Assembly (NCBI RefSeq): GCF_000315915.1
Contig: NC_020189.1
Location: 682,001-746,000 of the forward strand
DNA length: 64,000 bases
Source of the DNA: Henningerozyma blattae CBS 6284
Taxonomy: Eukaryota; Ascomycota; Saccharomycetes; Saccharomycetales; Saccharomycetaceae
Direction: 5' to 3'
Position 1 is the first letter of the stretch, and each line of letters starts with the position of its first letter. The translations under genes and the position numbers were made by a program. Positions 4,159-58,101 of the stretch are shown here, piece by piece. Under the pieces are notes generated by a model. The model worked only from the letters and a program-made list of their open reading frames with translations, made no database searches and was not told the DNA's origin.

Positions 4159-4964
4159 TTAGAATCTCAACTTGGAGAAGAACCATTGGTTCTTACCAGC
4201 TTGGTGTCTTTCTTCGAAAGCCTTCTTGATAACTTTCTTAGCTTCTTCTCTTTGAGATGGTTGTTCGAAAGTTTCAGTAGAGACAACAGACTTGAAAGCT
4301 TCAACATCTAAACTGTATCTAGTTGGCAATAAATGGTTGTAGTTAATGACCTTGATGAATGGCTTGATCTTAGTTCTCTTGGCAACCATCTTAGCGGAGT
4401 GCTTCTTAGTGACCTTTAATGGGTATCTTTCAATACCAGCAACTAAAGCATGACCGAATGGGTGAGATTTAGAACCTTCATCGTGTGGCTTGACGATAAC
4501 GACCTTCTTACCAGCGTAACGACCACGGACAACGACAGCTGTTTAAAATGTGAAAATATATTAAAGATAATACAAATGTATTTCCAATAAATATAATGAA
4601 TTGTTAGTAAATTTATCCAGAAAAGTGCAGTAAAAAAAGTATCATTCAACAAGTTCCAATTGTTTGAAATTTCTTTGTCATTCATCATTTTTTATAGACG
4701 TATCGTTTTACAGTAAGTTATCTTTGGTTTGTTCTAATTCTGTTTTTTCAATATTCTTCACTATAAGTGGTACCTTGTTTCAATATTTTGTATTACAATG
4801 TTCCAATGAGAGTCCGTCATTTATATTCCACAAATCATTCGTGAACTCTCGAAATTTCAATTCTCAATTAGATTTTTCATTTTCAATCGATATGGATGGA
4901 TACTTTCAATAGTTGTGTCAAAAATATACATACCAACTTTACCAGCTTTCAAGAACTTAGCCAT
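4159..4964 (-). CDS. RPL27: Ribosomal protein eL27 (two exons)
   Basis: 60S large-subunit ribosomal protein L27. Exon 1 (4934-4964) encodes [10 protein letters not shown] plus the first base of an alanine codon, and exon 2 (4159-4538) encodes the rest. The spliced product is 136 residues, exactly the S. cerevisiae Rpl27 length. The conserved stretches [26 protein letters not shown] and [11 protein letters not shown] are readable. The ortholog pair is RPL27A (YHR010W) and RPL27B (YDR471W). Here one copy lies between the chromosome VIII-type neighbour DIA4 and the chromosome IV-type neighbour UGO1. A Rap1-like site lies about 340 bp upstream, the usual arrangement for ribosomal protein genes. 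Confidence 0.97.
4539..4933 (-). other. RPL27: RPL27 intron (395 bp)
   Basis: The 5' site is GTATGT (plus-strand 4928-4933), the branch point is TACTAAC (plus-strand gttagta 4603-4609), and the 3' site is CAG at 4539-4541. The intron splits an alanine codon. Small open frames inside it are chance. Confidence 0.95.
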
Positions 4965-5701
4965 TTTTGGTGATGTTTTGTGTATTTATGAGCTTAAAAC
5001 CACTAAAGTACAATGTCATATATATTCGTACACATTTTTCATATAGCTCACTTTAACGCTATCCATCAATTTTCAACATTATCGAGCCCAGTTCTTTGTC
5101 AGTTTTCCCACTGTCCTGTGTGGGCTTACGCTTCCTTCCCCAGTTAGTACAAGTCTGAAGCTCCTCCTGTAAGCTCTCCTCCTGAAACTCATCTTGCGTC
5201 TTTTCCCAATCGCGTTTCTCATTATTCATCGCTTTCCGAAATTTTTCAAAAATTTCAATTTTAATTTTTTAAAAGAAAACAAATTAAAATTGAAATTGTT
5301 TCGGGATGCACGGGTTTGCAGACAGTCTTGCATTAGTCAATTAGTTAATTGATTAATTTTAAAAATCTGTAAATGTATAAATTTCCAATTTAGCTTTCCG
5401 GGGTTTTTTTCCCTTTATGATATTGAACTGGATTTGAGATAGAATTTAAAATTAACGCAGAATAAGGAAGCCATTCAAAGACGATATATATATATATATA
5501 TATATATGTATTGAAATATTATTGAGATACAAGGGCAAACTTAATTAGGAAGGAAAGGTGATGCGAATTAAGAGTTAATAATACGGTGAATAATACAGAG
5601 TGTTTGACGATATTCTAAGCAATAAAGATCTTTCGACAAAAATAAATAAATAAATAAAACATCGAAAAAAAAAATATAATCTTAAAATCAAGCTGGTAGA
5701 A
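4965..5701. other. RPL27/UGO1 divergent promoter region
   Basis: Divergent spacer. Besides the Rap1-like site at 5304-5317 it contains CTTTCCGAAATTT near 5231-5245, an element shared with two other promoters in this window. An (AT)n microsatellite lies at 5484-5507 and an A-rich tract just before the UGO1 start. Confidence 0.6.
5304..5317 (-). promoter_or_regulatory. Rap1-like site of the RPL27 promoter
   Basis: On the minus strand this reads AAACCCGTGCATCC, matching the Rap1 core ACCCRTRCA. It is about 340 bp before the RPL27 ATG, the usual distance in yeast ribosomal protein promoters. It gives a local reference for the motif this species may use. Confidence 0.7.
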
Positions 5702-11135: not shown

Positions 11136-13562
11136 TTAAATGGGATGTGAATTTTTAAATGCAGCTCTTGCACCTTTACCTGCAGGATTAATTTGATTTG
11201 AATTTAAATTTAATTCATCCATACTTAAAGGATCATTTGAAGTTGAATGATTATGATTATGATTATTATGATTATTATGATTATTATGATTATTATGATT
11301 GTTATGATTATGAGTATGATGATCTATATGAGACGGTAAATCAAAAGTTTCATGGCCATTTAAAGTCAAATCTATGATTGCACTTTTAGTAGCTTTATGA
11401 ATAGTTGCCTTTAAAGGGGGACTATTGGGGATTGAGTTTAATACTTCCACTCTACTACTACTAATGACCATATTTGATGGTACATTATATTTTTTAACAG
11501 AAGGTCTTGGACTTATATGTGTAGCATGTGTAGAGTGAGGAGCGTGAGGTGGGTGAGTGGTATGTGGAGGGTGTGAAGGATGTGTAGTGTGTGATGTTGT
11601 ATTATGATTTAATTCAAAATGATTTTGTAAGTTTGTATTTGAAGTTACACGTTTAGATTTTCCATTTAAAATTGGAGAAGACGGGAGAATTTTCTTCTTT
11701 TTCAAAATATCATTACTATTAATATTGTTATTAGTGTTATTATTATTAGTAGTAGTAGTAGTATTATTAGTATTATTAGTATTGTTAGTATTATTATTAT
11801 TAGTAGTACTAGTACTAGTAGTATTATTATTATTATTATTATTCAATGTTAAAGTATTGAAATTATTCACCAACGAATTCTCACCATCTCCATTACTAAT
11901 CAACTGTCTTTGGTTGAAAAACGATTGAATCCAAGTGGTTTCTTTATTAATAATATTTGATGAAGTTGATGTAAGTGGCATGTTTGGTAAAGATAAAAAC
12001 CATAATTTTGATTTATATTTTTCCAATATTAAATAACCAGTGGAATTTTTTTCATTAAATTGGAAATCATACATTGATAGATTTGGGTCACTGATATTTA
12101 TTATAATGTTGTTATTATAGGATAAATTTCCATCTTTGAAAAAAGTTAATAATTGAGGAGGCTTTGTATTTAAAAATTGAGGGTAATTAGACACTAGACT
12201 TGCTATTAAGTCATTAGAAATGGAATTATAAGAATTGATTGACATCTTAGGACCATTTACATTGTATGGAATTTCATAAATGAAAAGATAATCTTGTTTA
12301 ATTATGGGCAATGGAGGCGCAGGTGCTTGCGCAGGTGCTTGCGCAGGTGCTTGTGTGGGTGACTTTGCAATTGTACTTGAGATACCCAATTTCTTTCTCC
12401 ATTCTACAATACTTGTAGTTGTGTTTGAAACTTTTAAAGGTTTTTTATATTTTTTCTTGGCAGAAATGATTGGGGATGTCGAAGGTGATGAAGATTTATG
12501 ATTTGTAATTTGAATATTTCGTAATGGTGTGTCTATTATATGTAATTGTCTGTTCGAGATTGTTGAATTCATCTTACTTGACAAGGGGGAGGTCGAGGGT
12601 GATGAGAGATTGGAAGGATTATTGAAGGTACTATTGTGTAAATTGATCAATGGAGTTTGCCAGATACCTCTCCATATGGAATCTTTATCTTGCCAATTGA
12701 TATCATTAAACCAAGGATGAAGTTTTATGTTGGGGATGGTGATTCTATCATTAGGGTTTAACGTTAGGATTTTACGTGTAAGGTTTATGATTTGAGGGTT
12801 TGTCAAATTTGCAGTGTTGTTATTTGGATGGAGAAGTAAGTTATTATTATTATTATTCCATGGATAATCCAAAGAAACGATTTTTTCAAACGTTTTCAAT
12901 TCATTTTCACCTCTGAATGGCGGGGTACCATTAATAAATTGATAAAGAATGCAGCCTAATGCCCAAACATCTGAAGCAAATTTACATTGATTGAATAATA
13001 GCAATTCAGGCGAAACGTATTCTGCTGTGCCTACAAACGAAGAACAAGTAGACATATTTGCCGGTGGAGACGCTGCCCCAAAATCAGTAATCATAAGTTT
13101 CCCCCATTTATCAAGCAAAAGATTCTCTGGTTTCAAATCTCTATGGATAATACCGCATGAATGGATATATTCCAAAGTATCTATTATTTGAACCATAAAA
13201 TGCTTGGAATACAATTCGTCGAATGTGCCATTCGTTTGAATATGCAAGAGAGAAAGTAACTCTCCACCTTTAGCATAATCCAATACGAAATACAAGTTTT
13301 GTTTGTCATGGAATGTATAATATAATTTGATGATTCCCGGATGGTTTGTCTTACCTAATAAATTCAGCGTATTTTTTTCAATATTTACATATTTGACTTT
13401 ATTTTCCTTTATGATATGGTTTTTGGAACAAACTTTAATAGCATAAGCTTTCTTCAGGTTTCTCTTATCGAGGGCCTTGTATACTGTCGAGTAGGCGCCA
13501 TGGCCTAATTCTTGTTTAAAGATGAAATCTTGAGGAGTATGTTTTTTAACAGTGGCAGACAT
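11136..13562 (-). CDS. PKH3: Pkh3, PDK1-type AGC kinase
   Basis: Serine/threonine kinase of the PDK1 group, which activates other AGC kinases in membrane and sphingolipid signalling. It has 808 residues against 898 in S. cerevisiae. The kinase domain spans about residues 13-290: GHGAYSTV at 20-27, Lys43, HRDLKPEN from 140 (catalytic D142), DFG at 160-162 and GTAEYVSPE. A second block (about 425-555, starting QDYLFIYEIPYNVNGP) is shared with Pkh3 and may be the PH-like region of PDK1 kinases. The tail carries long Asn/Thr tracts, His/Thr/Pro repeats and an (HNN)n stretch, and ends with the Pkh3-conserved PSNMVISSSR and a GARAAFK-like end. PKH1 and PKH2 lie in other contexts, so synteny favours PKH3 (YDR466W). 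Confidence 0.93.
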   Translation of the reverse strand: MSATVKKHTPQDFIFKQELGHGAYSTVYKALDKRNLKKAYAIKVCSKNHIIKENKVKYVNIEKNTLNLLGKTNHPGIIKLYYTFHDKQNLYFVLDYAKGGELLSLLHIQTNGTFDELYSKHFMVQIIDTLEYIHSCGIIHRDLKPENLLLDKWGKLMITDFGAASPPANMSTCSSFVGTAEYVSPELLLFNQCKFASDVWALGCILYQFINGTPPFRGENELKTFEKIVSLDYPWNNNNNNLLLHPNNNTANLTNPQIINLTRKILTLNPNDRITIPNIKLHPWFNDINWQDKDSIWRGIWQTPLINLHNSTFNNPSNLSSPSTSPLSSKMNSTISNRQLHIIDTPLRNIQITNHKSSSPSTSPIISAKKKYKKPLKVSNTTTSIVEWRKKLGISSTIAKSPTQAPAQAPAQAPAPPLPIIKQDYLFIYEIPYNVNGPKMSINSYNSISNDLIASLVSNYPQFLNTKPPQLLTFFKDGNLSYNNNIIINISDPNLSMYDFQFNEKNSTGYLILEKYKSKLWFLSLPNMPLTSTSSNIINKETTWIQSFFNQRQLISNGDGENSLVNNFNTLTLNNNNNNNTTSTSTTNNNNTNNTNNTNNTTTTTNNNNTNNNINSNDILKKKKILPSSPILNGKSKRVTSNTNLQNHFELNHNTTSHTTHPSHPPHTTHPPHAPHSTHATHISPRPSVKKYNVPSNMVISSSRVEVLNSIPNSPPLKATIHKATKSAIIDLTLNGHETFDLPSHIDHHTHNHNNHNNHNNHNNHNNHNHNHSTSNDPLSMDELNLNSNQINPAGKGARAAFKNSHPI
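11262..11318 (-). repeat. (HNN)n coding microsatellite in PKH3
   Basis: Repeats of a TGATTAT-type nine-base unit encode alternating His and Asn near the PKH3 C-terminus. The repeat stays in frame, and its copy number is probably variable. Confidence 0.8.
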
Positions 13563-13945: not shown

Positions 13946-14096
13946 CCCGTGCACCAGCAAAATTCGCCCGTGCACCTCAAAAACTCCCTCCGTGCATCCC
14001 CGCTTTCACCCCGTGCATCCGCAAATGCTTGCCACCCGTGCACCACCCCCTAACAGCCGTGCACCGCGTATTTTCATCCGTACACCATCCGTGACC
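13946..14096 (+). promoter_or_regulatory. Array of seven Rap1-like sites before SOD2
   Basis: Seven copies of CCGTRCAYC have CCGT starting at 13947, 13968, 13990, 14011, 14036, 14057 and 14078. A partial eighth copy (CCGTGACC) is at 14089. Spacing is 21, 22, 21, 25, 21 and 21 bp, about two helical turns. Most copies are preceded by C or AC, giving CCCGTGCAYC, which fits the Rap1 core and equals the site in the RPL27 promoter. The spacers between copies differ, so the motif is conserved and not the whole repeat unit. Aft1-type (TGCACC) or another factor remains possible. Confidence 0.7.
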
Positions 14097-14124: not shown

Positions 14125-14132
14125 TATATAAG
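14125..14132 (+). promoter_or_regulatory. TATA box of SOD2
   Basis: TATATAAG lies 40 bp after the last Rap1-like repeat and about 180 bp before the SOD2 ATG. Confidence 0.6.
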
Positions 14133-42972: not shown

Positions 42973-45540
42973 ATGTATTCTGTCAAAGTGGATATCTTTT
43001 ATAAGGATACCATTAAAAGTTTATTCAAATTAAATATCCACAAGAGAACGAGGATATTGTATCTTTTAGAATATTTATATTTTAAATTACAATCAGATGA
43101 TAGATTTGAAATAACAAAGGATATCAATCATTTTGAATTGATTGATATGAATACGGATCAAGTATTGGATAATCGAAAGAAGATTAATGATTATTTAATT
43201 GCGAAAAGTGGTTCAAGGGAGGGTACGAGGGAAGGTACGCCAGAGGATGACAAATTCTTGTACATGTGTATTGGAATCCGGTATAAAGAGACAACGATTG
43301 ACCTCCCCACAAGAAAGCTAGATGAGAGTAATTTTGCTAATATTAATGTTATAATTGAAACGAACAATAATCTAAATTATGGGGATTATGAAAGGAAAAT
43401 TTTGAGAAGAAGATTTAATGATTTGAAAATGAATGAAACGACGATTGTCCAATTGCGTAAGGAATTGGAATTGATGATTCAAGAGATGTATGCAAGACAA
43501 GATAAAAAGTATTGTACGGGTGAATATACAGTGGGAGAGTTTATGATTAAGGGTGTGGATCAAGTTTTCCCAGTGGAGGGGCAGGGGCAGGGGCAGGGGC
43601 AGGGGCAGGGGGACTCAATGAGAGACTCAATGAGTCTTGGTCAATTGATTCAATTGGATATCCCCAAGAGAGAAAGACAAACGTTTAAAATATTTTTCAA
43701 AACCAAGCATCAAATGAAGCTCAACGGTGAAAATGATTGTATCCAATTCATGCCGCATATGGATATGATCGAAGATAGTTTGAACGTGGATCGTGACGAG
43801 ATTCTTAGAGTGGAGGAATTGATTGGGTTTGTTTATAATAATATCATCAACATCAAGAATTTGGAGATGGACGATATTAAATTGATCTACCAGGGGAAAT
43901 TGATTAGTGATGAATGTTTTTTGAAAGAGGATGTGATGGATTTGATTGATACCAAGAAGCCTTATAAGATATATGTGTGTTTGAAGAAGGCAGAGGATTC
44001 GATTGAGTATGGATATTGGAGGAAATTGTTTGAAAAAAACGAGCATCACGACCATGAGCAATGCGAGGGGACACTTGCCGGGACTGAAGCAAAGACTGAA
44101 GCAAAGACTGAAGCAAAGACTGAAGCAAATACTGAAGCAAAGGCTGATATAGTGAGAACAGGAGAAATGTATGAAAAATGTTTAATCGATGGACAAGAAG
44201 TGTTTTTGAGAGTAAACTCGATAGAGAAGAAAAAGGCAAGGGGCAAAGATAGTGCCAGTACAATAGCAAGCAGTGATGATGATGAAAACGTCTATTTATC
44301 CATTGAAGGGCATGAGATTGCTATTGGGCCTCAAGATTGCCAAGTGGATATTCCTAACAAACAGATCAAGTTGACACCCAGGATTCTTGCCAAGATCGAG
44401 GGCCAATTGGACATGAAGATATCAAGAGAAGCAGTCAAGACAAGCTCGCCTGTGCCTGCGCAAGCGCAGGCACAGGCACCCACGCCTACACATGCGCATG
44501 CACCCACGCCCACACCAACACCACCACCACCACCCACACCCACACCCACACCCACACCCCATCCCAATGGCCTCTACACATGGATCATGAACGGATTGAT
44601 CGCACTGGTGTACGAGATCATCCCGGTGTTTTGCCGCAGCATGTATCTGATCATATTAAACACGTTTGGCCTAATGTTTCTAATCTTGGAATTCAGCTCA
44701 TTCTTACCGCTATGGCTGACCATAGCGATTAGTATGTGTGTCATCGCACGCACCATCTCGAATAACCCAGAGATCATTGAGATGTGGAAACCAATCATAA
44801 GACGGATCCCGGCATTGACACCTGAAGAGACAAGAAGAGGCAAAGAATACTTGTTTTCCAGTCGAATGGTGGAACGGATGGAGAATGGCCTACAGAACAG
44901 CATCTGCCAAGATCCAGCCATTATCGAGTTCCTGAGTGCACCTGGATTACAAACACAACGCACCCGGTTCATCTACAATCTGTTGAGCAACGAAGAGTTG
45001 GAAGCCAGCAGTAATGACATGAGAGATCAGGCACGCCTACCCAAGGCTTTGAACAGCACAAATGTTTCCACGAATAATAAGATACAATACATTCGTATTT
45101 GTGTCACTGAATGGGAAAATGCCACCCACATTCGGACTTTGGACGCCCGGTCACGCCGGTCACGTGCGCGCGGCCACGCAGCCCTGCTGCGGCTGCTGGC
45201 GAGCCCTGGCACCGGGGCGAACCCTGGCCCCGCCCCAGCACAACCCCGCCAGCCCTGGCACGCACGTGCCAGGGCTTTCTGGGCACGTGCCACCCACCTG
45301 GTCCGCGGCGCCGACGCCCTGCAGCGATTGGCGCTCCACGTGACGCCAGACCCGCACGCCGACGGGATAGCCGTGCAGCTGGCCAAGCACGTGATCCTCC
45401 TGGCCCTGCTCCTATTTTTGCCACTGCAGCAGCACGTGCACGGGGCCGTCGCAGCACGTGCCACTCCATCCAACGACAATGCTGACAACCCTGCAGATCG
45501 GGCTGGCCACGGCGATGCTCGCGCCGTGCATGCCGAGTGA
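42973..45540 (+). CDS. USA1: Usa1, ERAD scaffold linking Hrd1 and Der1
   Basis: ER membrane scaffold of the Hrd1 ubiquitin ligase complex in ER-associated degradation, similar to HERP. From the first ATG (42973) it has 855 residues against 838 in S. cerevisiae. The frame is open further upstream to 42937 but only through a GTG. A ubiquitin-like region lies at about residues 235-345 and includes MDDIKLIYQGKLI. Low-complexity repeats follow: (GQ)n near 202-213, (TEAK)n near 372-392 and Pro/Thr/Ala repeats near 493-533. A membrane hairpin lies around residues 535-600, and a further hydrophobic stretch (HVILLALLLFLPL) is near the C-terminus. Base composition shifts sharply to G+C-rich in the last 400 bp. 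Identity rests on synteny (YML029W), size and architecture, since sequence similarity is weak. Confidence 0.8.
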   Translation: MYSVKVDIFYKDTIKSLFKLNIHKRTRILYLLEYLYFKLQSDDRFEITKDINHFELIDMNTDQVLDNRKKINDYLIAKSGSREGTREGTPEDDKFLYMCIGIRYKETTIDLPTRKLDESNFANINVIIETNNNLNYGDYERKILRRRFNDLKMNETTIVQLRKELELMIQEMYARQDKKYCTGEYTVGEFMIKGVDQVFPVEGQGQGQGQGQGDSMRDSMSLGQLIQLDIPKRERQTFKIFFKTKHQMKLNGENDCIQFMPHMDMIEDSLNVDRDEILRVEELIGFVYNNIINIKNLEMDDIKLIYQGKLISDECFLKEDVMDLIDTKKPYKIYVCLKKAEDSIEYGYWRKLFEKNEHHDHEQCEGTLAGTEAKTEAKTEAKTEANTEAKADIVRTGEMYEKCLIDGQEVFLRVNSIEKKKARGKDSASTIASSDDDENVYLSIEGHEIAIGPQDCQVDIPNKQIKLTPRILAKIEGQLDMKISREAVKTSSPVPAQAQAQAPTPTHAHAPTPTPTPPPPPTPTPTPTPHPNGLYTWIMNGLIALVYEIIPVFCRSMYLIILNTFGLMFLILEFSSFLPLWLTIAISMCVIARTISNNPEIIEMWKPIIRRIPALTPEETRRGKEYLFSSRMVERMENGLQNSICQDPAIIEFLSAPGLQTQRTRFIYNLLSNEELEASSNDMRDQARLPKALNSTNVSTNNKIQYIRICVTEWENATHIRTLDARSRRSRARGHAALLRLLASPGTGANPGPAPAQPRQPWHARARAFWARATHLVRGADALQRLALHVTPDPHADGIAVQLAKHVILLALLLFLPLQQHVHGAVAARATPSNDNADNPADRAGHGDARAVHAE
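43578..43611 (+). repeat. GGGCAG hexamer repeat coding for (GQ)n
   Basis: About five copies of a GGGCAG hexamer in frame within USA1. Confidence 0.9.
44084..44148 (+). repeat. 12-bp coding repeat, (TEAK)n in USA1
   Basis: Five near-identical copies of a 12-bp unit encoding Thr-Glu-Ala-Lys, one with Asn. The reading frame is preserved. Confidence 0.9.
45161..45460. promoter_or_regulatory. Cluster of seven CACGTG boxes
   Basis: CACGTG occurs at 45161, 45263, 45284, 45337, 45388, 45433 and 45455, all inside the 3' coding part of USA1. CACGTG is the core bound by Cbf1 and Pho4. The cluster is about 0.6-0.9 kb before the TSA1 ATG. Whether it regulates anything is inference. Confidence 0.5.
45251..45276. 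repeat. Inverted repeat, 12-bp arms, 2-bp centre
   Basis: AGCCCTGGCACG is followed by CA and then the exact reverse complement CGTGCCAGGGCT. One CACGTG box sits within it. It lies in USA1 coding sequence. Confidence 0.9.
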
Positions 45541-56918: not shown

Positions 56919-58029
56919 GTATTTCCAATTCCAATTGATTTTAAAATAGTTGTCTTTTTTTCTTTTCTTTCTTTATTATTCATTTGGCATTTTCACTTCG
57001 ATAACAACTTTTTAACTTCAATATCAAATTTCGATTCAATTCTCAATATCAAATTTCGATTCAATTCTCAATACCAAATATTTTTTTAGTCTTTCATTTT
57101 TCAAATTTCATTTTATTTATTACAAATTTCTGGGTTAACGGTTTTCTTTTATTTTTTCAGGGCATTTATTATCATGTATATTTCAATTCTGTATATTACT
57201 ACTTCATTATTATTTCATCTTTCTTTTGATATCTGATACATTCTAAAAAGAAAAAAATCAGTATTTATAGTCCATGGATGTGCTATATGTAATATTATAC
57301 AATAATACTTTTTAATTTAATTATTTTTTTTTATATAAAAACATTTTAAAAAGATAATATTTTTTTTCAAATAATAAGTTTATTTTTTTTGCAAATGAAA
57401 AATCACTAAAATTTTTTTTTAAAATTAGATGATAATTCCGAAACTCCGGCATTGGCGGTAAAAAAAAAGGGATAAAGAATGTTTAAAATTAATCAAACAA
57501 TGGAAGAGGAAAAACTACAAAACTACATAAAATATATTTTCTGTAATCCATGACGGTCAAGTTGACGGAAGTTTTATAGAATTTAAAATTTAAAAGAAAA
57601 GATATATATTGTCAGGTAGTGTGAGCTACGTTAGTCACATGTATAAACCAAGATCACGTGATATCGGAATGAACATGTAGATTAACAAGTAGGTGAATCA
57701 TGAACATAAATTCTATTTAAGAATCTAAAGCTAAAATAATAAACTAGAGGGTTAAAGTAGAACAAAGAGGTAAGAACCAGAAAACAAAAAGGACGAAATA
57801 CAAAAGATGGAAGTGTATAGTGAACAAAGCGGAACGTAATAATAATAATATTTAACTTACATAGGCTCAGGTATATAGTTGTATAGTTTAATAAACAGTT
57901 GGTATTAAACTAGCAGCCAAAAAGATATACTACTGGGAGTAGCAAAGCATAAAATTGTTACATATATAAATTATGCTCACGTGATACACAATATTTTCTT
58001 GAAAAAAAATAAAATTTAAAGAAGTAAAG
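56919..58029. other. YOX1 3' flank to tRNA gene
   Basis: AT-rich spacer with a 25-bp tandem repeat at 57019-57079, two palindromic TCACGTGA boxes (57654-57661 and 57977-57984) and A-rich tracts. The A run at 58003-58010 is the T-type pol III terminator of the tRNA on the minus strand. RPS18, which lies near here in S. cerevisiae, was not found. Confidence 0.5.
57019..57079 (+). repeat. 25-bp tandem repeat, about 2.4 copies
   Basis: Two exact 25-bp units starting CAATATCAAATTTCG (57019-57043 and 57044-57068), then a partial third, in the YOX1 3' flank. Confidence 0.9.
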
Positions 58030-58101
58030 CACTCACGGTGGGGGTCGAACCCACAATCTTCTGATTAGAAGTCAGACGCGTTGCCATTACGCCACGCGAG
58101 C
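58030..58101 (-). tRNA. tRNA-Arg (anticodon UCU)
   Basis: 72 bases with no intron. The acceptor arm GCTCGCG pairs with CGTGAGT (one G-U pair at each end region) and G is the discriminator. The A box TGGCGTAATGG, the anticodon loop ACTTCTAAT with TCT, and the B box GGTTCGACCCC are clear. It is nearly identical to S. cerevisiae tRNA-Arg(UCU), which decodes AGA. Confidence 0.96.

Follow-up and report, generated by a model that had tools for sequence, protein, structure and literature searches.

The yeast Henningerozyma blattae CBS 6284, a species also called Tetrapisispora blattae, carries seven copies of the motif CCGTRCAYC in close succession upstream of SOD2, the gene for mitochondrial manganese superoxide dismutase, and this arrangement raises the question of which protein binds there and what so long a row of sites does at a single promoter. 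In an exact scan of the window (the whole 64-kb stretch of DNA that was analysed), eight matches to the motif were found compared to 0.28 expected from shuffles, and none of 100 shuffles contained eight or more. Seven of the matches, all on the plus strand, form the array (13947-14086, Table 1), and the eighth lies on the minus strand near RPL27. GC content is 62% in the array stretch and 31% in the window. A sequence-only reading of this DNA had described seven same-strand motifs at steps of 21, 22, 21, 25, 21 and 21 bp, start to start, with a partial eighth after the seventh, and the scans returned exactly this series, the last copy being a degenerate CCGTGACC. That reading had also placed all of the sites on one face of the helix, a description that had to be given up. 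At 10.5 bp per turn the helical phases of the seven sites are 0, 0, 34, 34, 171, 171 and 171 degrees and, as the 25-bp step turns sites 5-7 about 137 degrees away from site 4, the array is composed of two phased blocks of four and three sites, which remain separate at 10.4 or 10.6 bp per turn as well.

Table 1. Features of the SOD2 and RPL27 regions, in window coordinates.
Feature	Position	Strand	Basis
RPL27 coding exon	4162-4542	-	PF01777
Single CCGTGCATC site in sense orientation, 349 bp before the RPL27 start	5305..5313	-	exact match
PKH3-like kinase, divergent neighbour	11136..13562	-	ORF, PF00069 and PF25347
Rap1-like site 1, CCGTGCACC	13947..13955	+	exact match; flank CCAC fits ACAY
Rap1-like site 2, CCGTGCACC	13968..13976	+	exact match
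Rap1-like site 3, CCGTGCATC	13990..13998	+	exact match
Rap1-like site 4, CCGTGCATC, ends first phased block	14011..14019	+	exact match; phase 34 degrees
Rap1-like site 5, CCGTGCACC, opens second block after 25-bp step	14036..14044	+	exact match; phase 171 degrees
Rap1-like site 6, CCGTGCACC	14057..14065	+	exact match
Rap1-like site 7, CCGTACACC	14078..14086	+	exact match
Degenerate eighth copy, CCGTGACC, starts 11 bp after start of site 7	14089..14096	+	relaxed scan, sequence
TATA-like box TATATAAG, 39 bp after end of site 7	14125..14132	+	sequence; function putative
SOD2, mitochondrial Mn superoxide dismutase, 240 aa	14311..15033	+	ORF, Pfam Sod_Fe_N and Sod_Fe_C, homologues

Pfam matches for both neighbouring genes bear out the divergent PKH3/SOD2 promoter that had been proposed as the setting of the array. 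The motifs, in sense orientation relative to SOD2, start between 364 and 233 bp upstream of its ATG, and the array, at least 385 bp from the PKH3 start, is nearer to SOD2 than to PKH3. The SOD2 protein itself is rather divergent, its ten best outside hits being 52-57% identical. One CTGCC[TA], which we take to be an IFHL-like motif, was found at -191 before SOD2, and no consistent match to it was found near the ribosomal-promoter sites of this genome.

As the core alone is no proof of Rap1, the letters flanking it were examined. This was done on the 84 distinct CCGTGCACC sites outside the window among 100 listed of the 104 in the genome. CA occupied positions -3 and -2 in 35 of the 84, compared to a background of 6% (p 1e-20), and CAY preceded the core in 31 of them. 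The preferred letters before the core, which lie outside the search pattern, read [A/C]-C-A-[T/C] (ACAY), and flank and core together give ACAYCCGTGCAC, in agreement with the Rap1 string WACAYCCRTAACATY published as a consensus (PMC2585575, excerpt). In the array, position -3 is C in six of seven sites, -2 is A in four and -1 is a pyrimidine in six. Sequence of the ACAYCCRTRCAY type, 5' flank included, as is expected of Rap1 sites, is thus present, and so is a conserved Rap1 protein in the same genome. The Rap1 DNA-binding domain had a single match in the genome, protein TBLA_0B00240, which aligns to 1ign, the solved S. cerevisiae domain, and whose DNA-binding region shares 64% identity with P0147, P0128 and P0138 (132 of 207 columns, gaps included). 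The stretch between the two Myb-like halves is shorter in this protein (L017:619-2697) than in S. cerevisiae Rap1.

Ribosomal promoters provided a further line of evidence. The sequence-only reading had pointed to the same motif in the RPL27 promoter, and both the exact match on the minus strand and the identity of RPL27 were confirmed (Table 1). Its proposal that the motif be scanned against ribosomal promoters gave a divided result: CCGTRCA occurs within 500 bp upstream of four of nine ribosomal genes, sense in all four, and is absent from the promoters of the other five, so that its use is above chance and not general. Without RPL27, which had been chosen earlier for its motif, three of eight ribosomal genes have the core (p 0.007-0.012). 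For RPL30, whose start codon lies behind an intron, the 1100 bp before the coding exon were scanned instead. Four more ribosomal genes (L36e, L1, L23 and S13/S18 families) lie downstream of other CCGTGCACC sites, and an L15e gene is found near another, at more than 1 kb and antisense. The SOD2 array shares its sense orientation and its range of distances from the ATG with the ribosomal-promoter cores of this genome. Pfam backs the names given here to members of the ribosomal, eIF5A, SOD and kinase families; other names are provisional assignments by eye, in most cases added to a family match (PSA1, GPM1, AAT2, VMA4, SSU1 and TRP4, together with RPL8, RPL30, RPS12, SNU13 and NHP2). IPP1 had no Pfam match. 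Because of the flank, which was no part of the search, the conserved DNA-binding domain and the cores in ribosomal promoters, Rap1 is well supported by sequence as the best candidate for the array motif, and the earlier assignment of the motif to the Rap1 type is upheld at that level.

Closely spaced same-strand sites recur elsewhere in this genome. CCGTRCAYC occurs 213 times, compared to 102 for its reversed control, and CCGTGCACC 104 times (four of them in the array), compared to 40. Of the 213 CCGTRCAYC matches, 100 were located individually. Same-strand pairs of CCGTRCAYC with 8-16 bp between them number 16, six in the SOD2 array and ten at eight other loci, and the reversed control of this 9-mer search yielded none. 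The same kind of search with an 8-mer and a wider gap returned 24 pairs against 23 in its reversed control, an unexplained result that counts against this form of the test, and a search for triples returned eight matches against nine in its reversed control. The spacing preference therefore rests on the 9-mer control, the convergent count (no convergent pairs genome-wide, six in the reversed control) and the offset profile. With SOD2 excluded, a spacing of 20-22 bp is found in 11 of the 18 close same-strand pairs (p 1e-7); counted by locus, the figure is 9 of 13 (p 4e-7). In the offset profile of 84 sites, which counts a pair of two exact sites twice, once per side, the largest same-strand peak is at 21 bp, with 18 counts compared to 0.07 expected per offset; there is a smaller same-strand peak at 14 bp, and none at 21 bp on the opposite strand. 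The scoring schemes behind this profile and the relaxed scan were made by hand from the Rap1 consensus. Pairs of the smaller, 14-bp class were seen at C1:1484138 (L039) and C1:1449160 (L002), and a spacing of 35 bp, equal to 14 plus 21, is likewise visible in the profile.

In the pair and triple searches, arrays of weaker sites aside, the seven sites of SOD2 are the longest run of exact sites seen. Five of the eight triple matches are in SOD2. One is at C1:1613062, where a fourth site comes 66 bp after three regular ones, and one at C1:2433861, where three sites are followed by a degenerate fourth, by relaxed score, 21 bp further on. The last is a 20-bp repeat at C3:1411392-1411438 on the minus strand, with three exact units containing CCGTACA, a tandem repeat probably unrelated to promoters. 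By relaxed score, C1:2433861 and C7:505115 (L014) come closer to the SOD2 array; the latter has three exact and several weaker, irregular same-strand sites in a stretch of about 100 bp, which is followed by CA-rich DNA and has a CorA-type transporter gene nearby. The genes beside the other tandem loci include this CorA-type transporter, a SLAC1-family (SSU1-like) pump and glutamine synthetase. Single sites had no orientation bias in 67 contexts, many of which reach only 500-700 bp each way (L037 was omitted, as it overlaps L036): 12 were sense-only, 10 antisense-only, 12 both, 10 within an ORF and 23 none of these.

What the array does is best approached through UASrpg, the Rap1-dependent element of S. 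cerevisiae ribosomal promoters, which has the same core and flank (ACAYCCRT), mostly in same-strand tandem pairs, with sites a few hundred base pairs upstream, measured there from the transcription start and here from the ATG (PMC2585575, excerpt). According to the same excerpt, the preferred gap between tandem 15-mers is 2-6 bp, which by our arithmetic corresponds to 17-21 bp from start to start. The SOD2 array shows this kind of close, same-strand tandem spacing. It differs from UASrpg in having seven strong copies instead of one or a pair, in belonging to a non-ribosomal gene, and in consisting of two phased blocks joined by the 25-bp step. Tandem sites are reportedly the subject of a study by Lascaris and others (1999). 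With the tandem layout of S. cerevisiae ribosomal promoters as the analogy, we consider it probable that the array serves SOD2 as an extended upstream activating region of the Rap1 type. Several Rap1 molecules would bind side by side on the array, exclude nucleosomes and bring the general transcription machinery to SOD2. Four results were counted against such a region: codon usage, the lack of orientation bias, the five ribosomal promoters without CCGTRCA and the two reversed controls that came close to or exceeded the counts for the motif.

Codon usage bears most directly on the strong SOD2 expression that the sequence-only reading had suggested. SOD2 is average by this measure (0.27, rank 24 of 51 genes), compared to 0.64-0.89 for 12 ribosomal genes and eIF5A, and this proxy lends no support to constitutively high SOD2 expression. 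Among the neighbours of the other tandem loci, 15 of 17 genes or gene parts score 0.15-0.32, the outliers being glutamine synthetase at 0.66 and one other at 0.69; four hand-picked genes with single sites score 0.44-0.77. In S. cerevisiae, tandem Rap1 sites on the coding strand are described as necessary for maximum ribosomal-gene expression, and the effect of Rap1 as levelling off after a few sites (PMC3540036, excerpt). Since Rap1 activation is thus reported to need few sites, and since codon usage is average for SOD2 and low at the tandem loci, it is more likely that the extra copies make occupancy robust, low in noise or conditional than that they raise output in proportion to their number.

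The array might instead be a nucleosome-free barrier or insulator built by Rap1, which parts the PKH3 and SOD2 units or stops silent chromatin. Its position between divergent genes at a distance from the PKH3 start would suit this, as would the codon usage of PKH3, which is as unremarkable as that of SOD2, and two or three tandem Rap1 sites can block heterochromatin in S. cerevisiae (PMC3355138, excerpt). However, about 0.62 Mb separate the array from the closer end of the 1.32-Mb contig, and its proximity to SOD2, the nearby TATA-like box and its sense orientation relative to SOD2 also speak against a barrier, which we consider unlikely. Less likely again is that a different factor, for instance Aft1/2 or a zinc-cluster protein, binds the sites and puts SOD2 under metal or stress control. 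SOD2 is a metal enzyme, and the CorA-type transporter, the SSU1-like pump and glutamine synthetase encoded near other tandem loci are in keeping with this idea, but the genome-wide flank fits Rap1 and the core precedes several ribosomal genes. The Aft1/2 core is CACCC, and this sequence stands at the motif end in none of the seven array sites, so Aft1/2 is an unlikely binder.

Tandem duplication or replication slippage could in principle have left the row behind without any function. The spacers of units 1 and 2, the most alike of any pair, match at 7 of 12 positions, and a 22-nt stretch including the motif is found again, at 86%, 89 bp away. Neither the best spacer pair (p 0.33) nor the spacers as a whole (mean identity 0.30, p 0.13) are more alike than shuffled ones, yet the motifs are nearly perfect, and the same spacing occurs at unrelated loci. 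Recent duplication of a unit is accordingly unsupported, the earlier remark that the sequences between the motifs differ was borne out, and we regard a functionless leftover as improbable, even more so than binding by another factor. The faintest chance is given to the proposal that the array is a telomere-sized Rap1 array inside a chromosome-internal promoter that competes with telomeres for Rap1 and possibly serves as a programmed replication-fork obstacle; if this were true, SOD2 output would depend on Rap1 dose or on the state of the telomeres. In yeast, telomeric Rap1 arrays and internal TG tracts likewise contain many adjacent Rap1 sites. The SOD2 array is unlike them in its mid-chromosome place in a promoter and in its varied spacers, which are neither TG1-3 repeats nor the near-identical units of an interstitial telomere tract. 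No telomere-type repeat was found in the last 1000 bases of 15 contig ends, and the sixteenth end consisted entirely of N. Rap1/Gcr1 glycolytic promoters, which also have a Rap1 site upstream of a metabolic gene, are a further comparison, and the GPM1-like gene of this genome (family PF00300; named by eye) has the motif upstream; unlike the SOD2 promoter, glycolytic promoters as a rule combine one Rap1 site with Gcr1 sites (PMC3540036, excerpt).

In one collection of open literature, outside of which most subscription papers lie, no description of seven Rap1 copies before SOD2 was found. The tandem layout is already known, and the seven-copy SOD2 array is an unusually long case of it. With seven clean copies, two phase blocks and a genome in which 21-bp tandem pairs recur, the extended activating region that we favour offers a natural test case of how the number, spacing and helical phase of Rap1 sites shape one promoter. 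It may, in addition, be informative on how chromosomes cope with long Rap1 arrays in their interior, a question that arises because arrays of this kind impede replication forks and favour breaks in S. cerevisiae systems: with Rap1 bound, an S. cerevisiae telomere fragment that carries seven consensus sites blocks forks in vitro (PMC8191780, excerpt), and breaks away from telomeres are promoted where multiple Rap1 proteins are bound (PMC4532487, excerpt).

Several other features were observed in the window and the genome. A GC-rich island at 45100-45450, with 150-bp windows reaching 0.76 GC compared to a window mean of 0.31, precedes a TSA-type peroxiredoxin gene (46065, PF00578) by about 0.6-1 kb, and three Rap1-like sites with one mismatch each are found by it at 45371, 45435 and 45524. 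The last part of an 855-aa open frame (42973-45540), which has no Pfam match, crosses this island; the frame possibly represents a true gene whose reading continues into non-coding sequence. Tandem repeats of 21 bp were also seen in apparent repetitive cell-surface genes at two contig starts, C1:1-4000 (L018) and C9:1-4000 (L031), the former with five minus-strand CCGTRCAY matches. Finally, the minus strand of the window contains a match to snR13 (8-122) and a tRNA-Arg gene (58029-58101).
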